Shown here: one piece after another, positions 45,607 through 49,764 of the stretch | Position numbering within the stretch: the stretch's first letter is position 1 | How the letters are laid out: each line of letters opens with the position of its first letter | NCBI GenBank assembly: GCA_017406565.1 | Contig: JAFQYG010000001.1 | Location: 1 to 60,710 of the forward strand | Origin: Candidatus Saccharimonadota bacterium | Lineage (GTDB): Bacteria; Patescibacteriota; Saccharimonadia; Saccharimonadales; Saccharimonadaceae | DNA: 60,710 nt | Direction of reading: 5' to 3' | The notes under the pieces: model-generated | Seen by the model: only the letters and a program-made list of their open reading frames with translations | What the model was told of the DNA's origin: nothing | Database searches by the model: none | Made by a program: the position numbers and the translations under genes

Positions 45607-46332
45607 TTACTTAGGTAATAGTAAGAATGCTACTGTCCCAGCAGTTGCCCCTAATATTATCGTCATAATAATTGTCACAATAATGCCAACATGGGAGTCC
45701 TTCTCTGGCTTCGTGATAATTGTCACTGGCCCCTTTGGTTCCTCTTTCGGAACTGCAATCTTCTTTTGATAAACATTCTTCGATAAAGGACGTTTTTCTA
45801 CTCTAGACTGGTTAATAAACGGTGATTTTGGAGTATTATAAGTCGCATTCGTTTTATTAACCACAGGCTTAGTAGAGACACTCTTAGTTTTCGGTGTGCC
45901 TCTCAGTAATTTTTCTGCTTTAACTTTCTTAGCTTTTGCTTCGCTCGCGGATGCCACTGGACCATGATTTAGAGGTCGTTTTGGTAATTCTGTATTAGAT
46001 TTAGTACCATGTAAATCCTCTACCACACCAAGTGAAGGCGCAGTTTTAGCAACTGGCTGCTTATACTCAGTCCTAGTATTCGCCACCACCCGACCACTCG
46101 ACTTAGCAACTGGCCTTGGGGCTGGTTTTGGTTGTATCACTCTATTAGCAGACGTTACAGCTCTCTTTGGAGCTACGTTATTTGAAACAGCTACAGGTGC
46201 CCTGCGCACTGGCTTCTGGGCAACTGGTCGTTTTGGTAATTCAGCATGCACTACTCTCGGCGCAGCCTGACCACGCTTAGTAGTATTAGTTTTAGATTTA
46301 GTCGGTACAAAATCTATGTATCTCTTATTCAT
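45607..46332 (-). CDS. Basic Pro-rich protein with C-terminal membrane anchor
   Basis: 241 residues. About 210 residues are basic and Pro/Lys/Ala/Arg-rich, with recurring LPKRP and RPVA motifs, and a single transmembrane segment lies at the C-terminus (about 218-238). This tail-anchored layout leaves a positively charged, probably disordered cytoplasmic domain, which could contact nucleic acids or the membrane (speculation). Its start overlaps the tpiA stop by 4 nt. Confidence 0.55.
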   Translation of the reverse strand: MNKRYIDFVPTKSKTNTTKRGQAAPRVVHAELPKRPVAQKPVRRAPVAVSNNVAPKRAVTSANRVIQPKPAPRPVAKSSGRVVANTRTEYKQPVAKTAPSLGVVEDLHGTKSNTELPKRPLNHGPVASASEAKAKKVKAEKLLRGTPKTKSVSTKPVVNKTNATYNTPKSPFINQSRVEKRPLSKNVYQKKIAVPKEEPKGPVTIITKPEKDSHVGIIVTIIMTIILGATAGTVAFLLLPK

Positions 46333-47099
46333 GCTCTCACTCTTTTAGCTGTTTCTATTATATCAGTAAATTCACTCAAAATCAAACTTGCTCCCCCAAT
46401 CAAAAGACCGTTCACCCCTGGTACTGTTAAATACGCCCCAGCATTAGATGGGTTTACACTCCCACCAAATAATACTGGCACCTGTTCAGAATGCTTCTCA
46501 CCATACGTATCCGCTAAATTTTTACGAATTAATTTCACCACTTCCGCAATCTCATCTGGAGTCGCTATTTTTGCTGCTTTTGTTGAAGAAATCGCCCAAA
46601 CTGGCTCATACGCAACAATAACTTTATCTAAATCGTCATCTGATACTTCCGATAATCCTCCAATTAACTGATCCCGAATCACGTCTGCAGTCTCCCCAAA
46701 AGCTCTTTCTGATTCCGTTTCACCAATACATAAAATTGGCGTAATCTTATTTCGAATCGCTGCCGCCACCTTCTTGGCTACCATCTTGTCATCTTCTCTA
46801 AAAATATATCTTCTCTCCGAATGTCCAATTATCGCATAATCCGCCAATCCCCGCAATTGTGAAAAAGAAGTTTCACCAGTAAATGCACCATAATCTCTGT
46901 AAAATGCATTCTGTACCGCTAGTTTCATCTTATGACGATCTACTTGCAAAGACAAAGGCTGCAATGCAATCGTCGACGGTGCCACTACTACCTCAGTATC
47001 ACGATAGTTTGGCAAAGCTTTTAAGAGTTTATGAAGATAGATAGAAGCCTCACCCACAGTGAAATTTAGCTTCCAGTTGCCCACAATATAAGTTTTCAT
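46329..47099 (-). CDS. tpiA: Triosephosphate isomerase
   Basis: 256 residues from the ATG at 47099. GNWKLN (catalytic Lys), IGHSERR (His), VAYEPVWAI (Glu) and GGSVNPSNAG are all present. It interconverts DHAP and GAP. TATAAT (47106-47111) lies 6 nt upstream; an ATG at 47105 is in frame but touches the -10 box. It directly follows the PfkB-aldolase fusion gene, so its substrate is that enzyme's product. Confidence 0.96.
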   Translation of the reverse strand: MKTYIVGNWKLNFTVGEASIYLHKLLKALPNYRDTEVVVAPSTIALQPLSLQVDRHKMKLAVQNAFYRDYGAFTGETSFSQLRGLADYAIIGHSERRYIFREDDKMVAKKVAAAIRNKITPILCIGETESERAFGETADVIRDQLIGGLSEVSDDDLDKVIVAYEPVWAISSTKAAKIATPDEIAEVVKLIRKNLADTYGEKHSEQVPVLFGGSVNPSNAGAYLTVPGVNGLLIGGASLILSEFTDIIETAKRVRA

Positions 47100-47146
47100 A
47101 ACCATATTATATCACATCGAATCTTATAATCAAAAACCGTCATAAA

Positions 47147-48976
47147 TCACTGTAATGCATCTGTATTTGCAATCAATCGCGCCTTGAATGCTTCCTTTGC
47201 TGCCTCAACATTTGTATTATCGCCCTTCCAGGTGAACAAAGCCGGATCCTGCAATGCCCTTGCAAAAGAAAACGTCACTGGAAAATTAAAAGGTCCATTT
47301 TTTATTACTGCCGCAAGATTATCTGTTGCTTGTTCAACCGTCTGCCCACCAGATAAGAACACCACACCTGCTAGCTCACTCGGCACATGCTCTTTTAATA
47401 CCTTAGCGGTAGCTTCACCCACCTCATCAGGGGTAGAATTACTATGTCGTTTCCCACCTATCACCATATTGCATTTCAACACACAAGCCTTCAAATTCAC
47501 TTCAAAATCTGCCAATGTCGCAAATAATTTATCCAAAATCTTTGCAGTCACCTCCGCCGATTTATCAATACCATAATACCCATCATAAACTACCTCTGGT
47601 TCTACAATAGGCACCAACCCAGCCGATTGACACTCTTTTGCATATTCAGCCAAAATTCGACAGTTTTCATCTATCGCCATCGCCGATGGAGTGATAACTT
47701 CTCCAGCTTCATTTAAATGTATCTCAAAAGCTGCTCGCCATTTTGCAAACCTGAGTCCCATTCGATAATACTCTCGCAGTCTAAGAGCCAAACCATCTAA
47801 CCCCTTCGTATATGTTTCTACCGACTTCTCAAATTTTTCTAACCCTTGATCCACCTTAATCCCAGGTATAATTCGCTGCGAAATCAAATAATCCACAAAG
47901 CTTTGCCCATTATCAGCCTGTTGTCTAGCTGTTTCATCAAACAAAATCACGCCATTCACATACTTATCTAAATCAGGAGTACTAAGGAATATATTACGAT
48001 AATCCCTTCGATTCTCTGCTGTGTCTTCGATATTAAGCTGAGCAAACTTCTTCTTAATCGAACCACCCGACTCATCCGCCGCTAAAATACCCTTAGGCTT
48101 ATACACCAAACTTGCCGCAAGAAGTTCTAAATCTTCAGTAGGATCCATATTCTTAGTTATGTCTTCTAATTCCTCTAGATTAAGCACCGAATCCAATTTA
48201 GAATTCTCCATATTCACTCTAGCCATCCTCAGACTATCCTCAACCGATTTGCCCAAAATAAAACCACCCAAAATCGTCGCCGCAGCAATCGAATATGCCG
48301 AAAGGTGTGTCAAAACATCTATTCTACCCACTGCAACATTCTCAGAAACACCACCATACGATAAATTCCCTTCCGAGACATAAACCAATTTACTATTATC
48401 CAATTGAAGCGCCTGTACTTCTTCCGAATCACCTCTGTTATTCTCTACGAATACTAAATTCGCTCTCGGAATCAACTGATTCAGTGTTACATCAAGCATA
48501 GTTCTTAAATAAATCACCAATTTTGTGTTCTGTGACAAATCTAAATACGACTCAATCTGTTTAACCGTTTCCGGCTCCAACTTCGCCGAACGATCAATAA
48601 ATACATAATCATAAAAATCACCAGGTGCTTCAAAATGTGTAGTTTTGTATTCAGTTGGAACCAAATAGCTTGGTCTACCATCAGATACCATAATGTACCT
48701 ATACACATTAGCCGTATCATCAGCTACTAACCCACCATCTTCCAGCTTCAATTTTGAACCAGTCACAGTAGTAGCAAGCCCCATTTTAGACAACACTTCT
48801 AAAGTAACCGCCGCTCCACCAAGGCTAGATTTTCGACTAAAAAAATGGTGTTCGCTTGCGTTGAACCCAAAATCCAACCACTTTACACCATTTTTATCAA
48901 CTTCAAATCCCTCTGTTCTGCTATCCAGATTCAGATATACATCCTTCAAAATATTGCCCACTACCAATATATTCAT
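47147..48976 (-). CDS. PfkB-like domain fused to class I fructose-bisphosphate aldolase
   Basis: 609 residues. Residues about 1-270 fold-match PfkB sugar kinases (MNILVVGNIL, GGAAVTLEVLSKMG at 53-66), but where DTTGAGDAF is expected the protein reads DVLTHLSAY (220-228), so the anion hole and catalytic Asp are missing. Residues about 280-609 are a complete class I aldolase: GILAADES (297-304), GIKVDQG (Lys374), FAKWR (Lys412), VPIVEPEV (455-462) and Schiff-base Lys501 in LKCNMV. It should split fructose-1,6-bisphosphate; the N-terminal domain may be a sensor or inactive kinase. TATAAT lies 6 nt before the ATG. Confidence 0.85.
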   Translation of the reverse strand: MNILVVGNILKDVYLNLDSRTEGFEVDKNGVKWLDFGFNASEHHFFSRKSSLGGAAVTLEVLSKMGLATTVTGSKLKLEDGGLVADDTANVYRYIMVSDGRPSYLVPTEYKTTHFEAPGDFYDYVFIDRSAKLEPETVKQIESYLDLSQNTKLVIYLRTMLDVTLNQLIPRANLVFVENNRGDSEEVQALQLDNSKLVYVSEGNLSYGGVSENVAVGRIDVLTHLSAYSIAAATILGGFILGKSVEDSLRMARVNMENSKLDSVLNLEELEDITKNMDPTEDLELLAASLVYKPKGILAADESGGSIKKKFAQLNIEDTAENRRDYRNIFLSTPDLDKYVNGVILFDETARQQADNGQSFVDYLISQRIIPGIKVDQGLEKFEKSVETYTKGLDGLALRLREYYRMGLRFAKWRAAFEIHLNEAGEVITPSAMAIDENCRILAEYAKECQSAGLVPIVEPEVVYDGYYGIDKSAEVTAKILDKLFATLADFEVNLKACVLKCNMVIGGKRHSNSTPDEVGEATAKVLKEHVPSELAGVVFLSGGQTVEQATDNLAAVIKNGPFNFPVTFSFARALQDPALFTWKGDNTNVEAAKEAFKARLIANTDALQ

Positions 48977-48999: not shown

Positions 49000-49764
49000 C
49001 TACAATACGCCCAAAATTCCTTGCAACGCATACCCAGTATCTTCATGATTACGTACTGTAATCGTATCGATTCCCATCTCTACGACTGGATAATCATTTC
49101 CACCAGGCTGCGTCATATCACCAAAGTATAAAATATCTTTCTTCTCTACCTCTAATTCTTCCAGAAGATGCGTCATACCAAATACTTTATTCATCCCAGG
49201 AGTAATCGCGTTAATAGATGTAGTGCCACCTATCTCGTAGTCAAACTCCGGCGCCAACTCTTTACAACGCGCTACAATTTTTTCGCGTTTCTTACAATCA
49301 GGATCCCAAGCATATTTTTCTTCAGTTCCAGCCTTTTGTCCAAGTGCCGAAAATGTCACTTGCGACAAACGGTTTTCAATAATCTCATCGCCAGGTTTCA
49401 GTTTATCTTCTTCCCAATATCCCAATTCTTTTGCCGCTTTTTCAATCGTTTCACTAATTTTAGCCACCTGTTCATCTGTTAGTGGGTAATTGTAAACTTG
49501 TTCCCAATCTTTTTTCTCTACATTATAACGATAATATTGCGTCCCTTGCGCCACGAACAAATGCAAATGTGACAATTGTTCTGGCGTTGGATTTGGTAAT
49601 TGATCCACAATTTGAATCAAAAATTGATCAAATTTCTGTCCAGAAATTGGACATATTTCAAAATGATCGAGACATTTCACTAGCAATTCAGCGATGTCTT
49701 TAGTAATTGGCGTCTTCGCCACATTTAATGTTTGGTCTATGTCAAATGCAAGTACTCTTTTCAT
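49000..49764 (-). CDS. HAD-IIB hydrolase, phosphomannomutase-like
   Basis: 254 residues. AFDIDQTLN is the HAD nucleophile motif, ICPISGQKFDQF the second motif, and FGDMTQPGGNDYPVVEMG the Mg site. The combination with RLSQVTFSALGQ most resembles the eukaryotic-type phosphomannomutase branch, though phosphatase activity is equally possible. TATAAT extended by TGG lies 6 nt before the ATG. It is upstream of the PfkB-aldolase gene, which has its own promoter. Confidence 0.75.
   Translation of the reverse strand: MKRVLAFDIDQTLNVAKTPITKDIAELLVKCLDHFEICPISGQKFDQFLIQIVDQLPNPTPEQLSHLHLFVAQGTQYYRYNVEKKDWEQVYNYPLTDEQVAKISETIEKAAKELGYWEEDKLKPGDEIIENRLSQVTFSALGQKAGTEEKYAWDPDCKKREKIVARCKELAPEFDYEIGGTTSINAITPGMNKVFGMTHLLEELEVEKKDILYFGDMTQPGGNDYPVVEMGIDTITVRNHEDTGYALQGILGVL

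Follow-up and report, generated by a model that had tools for sequence, protein, structure and literature searches.

What does a sugar kinase do when its catalytic motif is gone and it is still joined to an aldolase with its catalytic residues in place? The question is raised by one gene in a stretch of 60,710 nucleotides (the window) from a member of the Saccharibacteria, which are tiny episymbiotic bacteria. A first-pass annotation of this DNA had described the product as a PfkB-like half without its catalytic motif followed by a class I aldolase, and had offered two options for it, a reworked kinase feeding the aldolase or a ligand-sensing pseudokinase controlling it.

The fused gene and its aldolase

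The features of the locus are collected in Table 1. The C-terminal half is matched by PF00274 (E 2.7e-101, above the curated cut-off) and by NF033379 (377.9 bits against a cut-off of 250). Nine catalytic positions, D301, K374, K412, R414, E459, E461, K501 (the Schiff-base lysine), S542 and R573, are all present in it and are nearly invariant among 103 aligned aldolase halves; the first-pass statement that this half keeps every aldolase catalytic residue thus holds at the nine positions checked. With its catalytic residues complete, the fused protein looks like a working class I FBP aldolase.

The fusion architecture is conserved in the window's genus and in other genera of Saccharimonadaceae, over dozens of species, and because of this conservation and a dN/dS of about 0.06 we do not regard it as a product of chance. 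A frameshift or an assembly artefact was likewise ruled out, as the fusion recurs in dozens of independent genomes. When the same architecture was sought in other CPR genomes, as had been proposed at the outset, it was found and was confined to the window's family: among 286 sampled genomes of the phylum, frames of more than 600 aa occur only there, and elsewhere the aldolase frame is about 295 to 384 aa long.

Table 1. Features of the locus, with positions in the window
Feature	Position	Strand	Basis or remark
Complete pseudokinase-aldolase fusion ORF	47147..48976	-	609 aa plus stop, ATG start; architecture recurs within the genus of the window and in further genera of Saccharimonadaceae
PfkB/ribokinase-fold pseudokinase domain, residues 1-278 (end approximate)	48143..48976	-	AlphaFold2, Foldseek, VIA, hhalign
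Asp12, equivalent of the PfkB sugar-binding Asp	48941..48943	-	Kept in 92/93 homologues
Gly53-Gly54, N-terminal glycine pair of PfkB proteins	48815..48820	-	Next motif residue, Asn, lost
THLSAYS, residues 223-229, in place of DRTGAGD	48290..48310	-	Ser229 at the catalytic Asp position
Class I fructose-bisphosphate aldolase domain, residues 283-607	47156..48130	-	PF00274, NF033379; catalytic residues kept
Lys501, Schiff-base lysine of the aldolase	47474..47476	-	Motif alignment, 102/103
HAD-IIB phosphatase-like gene	49000..49764	-	23 bases upstream of the fusion
Triosephosphate isomerase, next pathway enzyme	46329..47105	-	41 bases downstream; PF00121, E 4.5e-74

A ribokinase fold without a catalytic site

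Residues 1-278 have no sequence match in Pfam (PF00294 included), NCBIfam or the PDB. Searches of the PDB with the single sequence or with an 88-row profile gave chance-level matches only, and Pfam recognised PfkB in just 1 of 88 homologues of the domain (E 0.058), so that the fold is demonstrable solely through structure prediction and through intermediate profiles from sister genera. The AlphaFold2 model of the domain, built with 11 homologues, has a pTM of 0.83 and a mean pLDDT of 79.6. Foldseek places it with ribokinases, ketohexokinases, HldA and PfkB-type phosphofructokinases (best E 2e-11), and VIA-align matches it to ribokinase-family structures with Z of 18 to 20 over about 250 residues, the best match having a Z of 20.1 over 250 residues with an rmsd of 3.7. 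The profile of window-type domains aligns by hhalign with that of intact PfkB proteins over 269 columns (probability 99.1, E 1.2e-18). A ribokinase-like fold, as seen in the model and in the Foldseek and VIA comparisons, spans the whole domain; the original suggestion of a PfkB-like half is therefore supported, including by the structure prediction that had been named as the means to overturn it.

Within this fold little of the active site remains. Asp12 lies at the position of the sugar-binding Asp of PfkB kinases, and it belongs, with the glycine pair and N255, to the retained features. The glycine pair (G53 in 81 and G54 in all of 93 homologues) corresponds to the N-terminal motif described for PfkB proteins (PMC5864856). 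A broader measure is given by the 122 columns with an invariance of 90% or more in intact kinases: the pseudokinases keep 16 of them and lose 78, among the latter the N..E, TDGP.G and GAGD motifs that make up the nucleotide site, the anion hole and the catalytic Asp. Both MAFFT, run with 41 intact relatives, and hhalign pair T223-H-L-S-A-Y-S229 with D-R-T-G-A-G-D, and since they agree on this register, we assign the catalytic Asp position to Ser229. The first-pass annotation, which had read DVLTHLSAY in place of DTTGAGDAF, was right about the loss of the motif and three residues off in its register, which pointed to Ser226 instead. Across 93 homologues the segment has the consensus T-H-L-S/T-x-Y-S, with T223 in 89, H224 in 85, L225 in 87 and S229 in 87; position 226 is nearly always Ser or Thr and position 229 nearly always Ser, and in no homologue does either hold Asp, so that an alternative catalytic Asp, the other outcome that would have spoken against a dead kinase, is found in neither register.

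These losses bear on the possibility that the domain is a rearranged kinase, with D220 or H224, for example, acting as the base, that makes FBP for the fused aldolase. D220 is indeed conserved in 80 of 90 homologues, and a canonical phosphofructokinase is absent. Against this stand the loss of the N..E, TDGP.G and GAGD columns and the model, in which residues 221-240 form a single helix that crosses the former anion-hole loop, as well as the presence of an intact PfkB elsewhere in the genome and the persistence of the domain without an aldolase (both below). We consider a rearranged kinase very improbable, and the reworked kinase of the first-pass annotation is unlikely because of the column counts given above. 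The domain is very likely non-catalytic, and kinase activity from a site of this composition appears very unlikely; of the two original options, the pseudokinase is the one borne out, in the sense that catalysis is lost, with the catalytic Asp, the anion hole and the nucleotide-site residues gone throughout the homologues.

The domain has also gained conserved residues of its own, namely K11, Y14, W33, F38, R93, D128-R-S, T223-H-L-S, S229 and E257. Judged from motif positions, these would lie where PfkB kinases have the segments of their sugar pocket and catalytic center.

Is the domain, then, a decaying relic without function? Its sequence is very divergent, the locus decays in certain lineages, and a few members of the window's genus have neither the domain nor the aldolase. 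However, estimates of dN/dS, which come from few pairs by a simple counting method, several other pairs being not computable because synonymous sites are saturated, contradict such a reading. Between the window and L031, omega is 0.061 for the N-terminal half and 0.037 for the aldolase half; between L271 and L272, where the aldolase is degenerate, it is 0.075 for the N-terminal domain; and between L090 and L091, which have no aldolase, pN of the domain is 0.074 against a saturated pS of 0.752. The N-terminal domain is under strong purifying selection, with and without the aldolase. Its new motif is conserved, and the half that decays is the aldolase, which leaves a functionless relic hardly credible.

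Descent from an active kinase

A profile search of the order with the N-terminal domain yielded, from sister genera within the family, proteins of about 336, 505 and 670 to 708 aa. These are PfkB proteins with an intact DRTGAGDAF motif, some standing alone and others joined to an aldolase of the same clade, and the fusions of an intact PfkB to a class I aldolase come from four genomes of one genus and one genome of another (L183, L190-L192, L186). Because sister genera carry intact PfkB proteins in both forms, the most fitting interpretation of the gene is a kinase-aldolase fusion in which the kinase later turned into a pseudokinase. The sister-genus subfamily (about 336 or 505 aa, and the L183 and L186 fusions) shares its fold and fusion order with the window protein but keeps GAGD and the nucleotide-site residues, both of which the window domain has lost; the latter is also shorter, with no counterpart of the G-D-D..G segment. 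The fusion in L223 (G536), which reads TGAGY and has thus kept the glycines and lost the Asp alone, is an apparent intermediate of kinase inactivation, as judged from a sequence whose N terminus is cut by the contig end.

The fused aldolases group together (99/94) whether their kinase is intact or dead, and the unfused class I aldolases of other Patescibacteria lie outside this clade. In the kinase tree, the intact fusions are mixed with unfused kinases and the pseudokinases lie outside that group, a layout that could mean separate fusions, although long branches make the placement unsure, and the AU test does not reject a tree in which intact-fused and dead kinases are grouped as one clade (p 0.17). 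We also considered a separate joining of kinase and aldolase in each lineage, which the aldolase tree does not require and with which the kinase tree is compatible.

Several other forms of these proteins were seen in the family. In many intact sister-genus PfkB proteins (L169, L188, L194 and similar) an extra N-terminal stretch of about 170 aa (MSKFL...GVDTRLIADI) precedes the kinase; in some genomes this stretch is a separate ORF (L173, L087). L181 (G416) encodes a protein of 587 aa in which both the kinase and the aldolase halves look degenerate, and G394 has, besides an intact fusion, a second class I aldolase copy with six stop codons (G394:C7:99729-100703).

Persistence without the aldolase

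An intact aldolase follows 95 of the sampled N-terminal domains, and others are followed by none or by a remnant without the Schiff-base lysine motif. The aldolase is absent in L088, L089, L090, L091, L178, L179, L274 and L275 and degenerate in L084, L085, L086, L247, L271 and L272. These 14 loci, counted as at least 13 genomes, remain after exclusion of L083 (aldolase intact, 5' end cut), L082 (possible frameshift) and L095 (very divergent). Rows that touch the 3' end of a sequence stretch had been set aside, and with this precaution we reject contig ends as the origin of the losses. Two of the domains have changed motifs, TGLTTDS in L178 and, as a slight variant, TRLSFYS in L275. By parsimony on a quick tree the losses amount to about ten changes, of which well-supported branches force only three or four. 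The degenerate remnant of L271 and L272, which has an Ala/Ser-rich tail at its end, still shows an omega of about 0.12 and for that reason may retain some non-catalytic function.

In G376 (L277:5513-7352), the stop codon of a solo dead kinase overlaps the beginning of the gene for a class II FBA (NF005481, E 3.4e-192), which looks as though the class I half had been replaced in situ by an unrelated class II enzyme. The reverse arrangement, a class I aldolase without the N-terminal domain, was not found in the window's genus, contig-edge cases aside. Its retention in species whose aldolase has become degenerate, gone missing or given way to an unrelated one makes an independent role for the dead kinase very probable. 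Control of the fused aldolase, the role that had been ascribed to a pseudokinase at first, is too narrow for the same reason: the domain is still present in genomes that have no class I aldolase, have only a decayed one or use a class II enzyme in its stead.

It is possible to see the domain instead as a structural appendage that stabilizes or oligomerizes the aldolase and binds nothing. In intact fusions it always lies N-terminal to the aldolase, and the PfkB lid commonly mediates dimer contacts. The full-length model would suit such an arrangement in that it is confident within each half, while its overall pTM is only 0.64, so that the relative orientation of the halves is not fixed. Yet the domain survives in at least 13 genomes that have no intact aldolase, two pairs of which were tested and gave low dN/dS; the partner in G376 is a class II enzyme encoded by a separate gene, and the segments of the old active-site motifs are strongly conserved, all of which makes a purely structural part unlikely.

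The source of fructose bisphosphate

To our knowledge, most Patescibacteria have no recognizable phosphofructokinase. Genome content was assessed here family by family: this genome has no PF00365 phosphofructokinase, and any match at all was seen in just 3 of 150 relatives. The first-pass remark that phosphofructokinase is often missing in Patescibacteria therefore holds, for the canonical enzyme, in this genome, which does have a second PfkB (L098, with DTTGAGDAF), the only intact one in it. L098 adjoins rpe-like and rpiB-like genes and an enolase fragment (names read from sequence); in sister genera, the L098-type PfkB stands next to an intact relative of the N-terminal domain, and L222 has the gene order transketolase, PfkB, class II FBA, PfkB. 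FBP in this genome is more likely made by L098.

Class II FBA occurs in 125 of 337 genomes of the family, in none of the window's genus and, within genus g62, in G376 only; the class I fusion therefore stands in for it in these lineages. Triosephosphate isomerase adjoins the fusion in many relatives, usually divergently, and the HAD-IIB protein, which matches the eukaryotic phosphomannomutase family PF03332 (E 2.5e-11), adjoins it in many genomes; in several genomes that have lost the aldolase, this gene was not found next to the dead kinase.

In some genomes of the window's genus the second PfkB has changed as well. In L241, L242 and L245 (G282, G349, G480), where the aldolase is lost or degraded, it too is without the catalytic Asp (TGAGS, NGAGV), and between G282 and G349 the amino-acid sequence of the dead copy differs little, with synonymous sites saturated. 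No second PfkB was found in G004 and G064. Such genomes lend some weight to a role that has nothing to do with sugar, for instance in gene expression or another complex, as in plant FLN1/FLN2, with the fusion as a historical relic. Retention of the domain after loss or decay of the aldolase fits this as well, and so do the second PfkB proteins that are dead (G282, G349) or were not found (G004, G064), while the plant proteins provide the precedent. On the other hand, most genomes keep the fusion to a catalytically complete aldolase, often near the triosephosphate isomerase and HAD genes, and the sugar-side Asp12 is kept, which renders a sugar-independent role rather unlikely.

A proposed function

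Our results lead us to favor a non-catalytic, sugar-phosphate-binding module, because catalysis has been lost while the fold, Asp12 and the new conserved residues are kept. Building on the fold, the descent, the motif loss, the conservation, the selection and the persistence without aldolase, all computed here, we propose that the protein goes back to an ancestor in which a class I FBP aldolase had been joined to a sugar kinase of the PfkB type, plausibly this family's phosphofructokinase. In the window's lineage the kinase half would then have become a pseudokinase that very probably lost the use of ATP, retained the fold, the sugar-side Asp12 and the glycine pair, and acquired a new conserved set of residues in the motif segments near the former active site. 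It would most likely bind a sugar phosphate (F6P or FBP) without turnover and use it to regulate or scaffold the triose/hexose-phosphate step, and the fused aldolase would cleave FBP normally, supplied by the other PfkB of the genome.

Taken as a whole, from former kinase to regulator or scaffold with a working aldolase and FBP from the other PfkB, we give this account an even chance of being right. That the domain acts as a sugar-phosphate-sensing regulator or scaffold, which presupposes both ligand binding and regulation, we would place just short of that. More tentative still is the idea that this function is separable from the aldolase, having arisen in the fusion, outlived the enzyme in many lineages and once been re-paired with an unrelated class II aldolase.

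The genomes of this family offer a graded natural series, from intact PfkB through intact fusion, pseudokinase-aldolase fusion, decayed aldolase and pseudokinase alone to pairing with a class II enzyme, and the function of a bacterial sugar pseudokinase therefore becomes directly testable. The series bears on the upper half of glycolysis in Patescibacteria, and PfkB-aldolase fusions in these genomes should not be annotated as phosphofructokinases before their GAGD motif has been checked.

Relation to known fusions and pseudoenzymes

A PfkB encoded in an operon with FBP aldolase has been proposed as the phosphofructokinase of TM7x (PMC12815258). This protein, TM7x_02415 of Nanosynbacter lyticus, is genetically tied to FBP aldolase just as the window protein is, but it is a separate gene whose predicted kinase is presumed active, whereas the window protein is a fused dead kinase. 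NF047869 (bifunctional 5-dehydro-2-deoxygluconokinase/aldolase) and NF041633 (KHG/KDPG aldolase-sugar kinase) are also PfkB-aldolase fusions; they involve other aldolase families and substrates and are annotated as multifunctional enzymes, and the window protein matches neither (NF047869 is absent among its NCBIfam matches at E up to 1). PfkB-aldolase fusions of this kind and PfkB pseudoenzymes such as FLN1/FLN2 are each already known; for a PfkB-aldolase fusion of Saccharibacteria, or a dead form of it, we found no description in the open-access literature.

Plant FLN1/FLN2 are, like the window domain, dead PfkB proteins, which have the fold without fructokinase activity and belong to a non-metabolic complex, the traits described for them being a place in a transcription complex and a thioredoxin partner. 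In contrast to the window domain they keep the Asp, in GSGD or A/QSGD, and have long N-terminal extensions and no aldolase, and the likeness is one of analogy only. Yeast Gal3p is a galactokinase-like protein, a dead sugar kinase that serves as a ligand sensor (PMC3409070); it belongs to another kinase superfamily than PfkB and still binds ATP and galactose. If our proposal is true, the separable sensor or scaffold of Saccharibacteria would be a bacterial counterpart of the repurposed sugar kinases of the Gal3p or FLN type.
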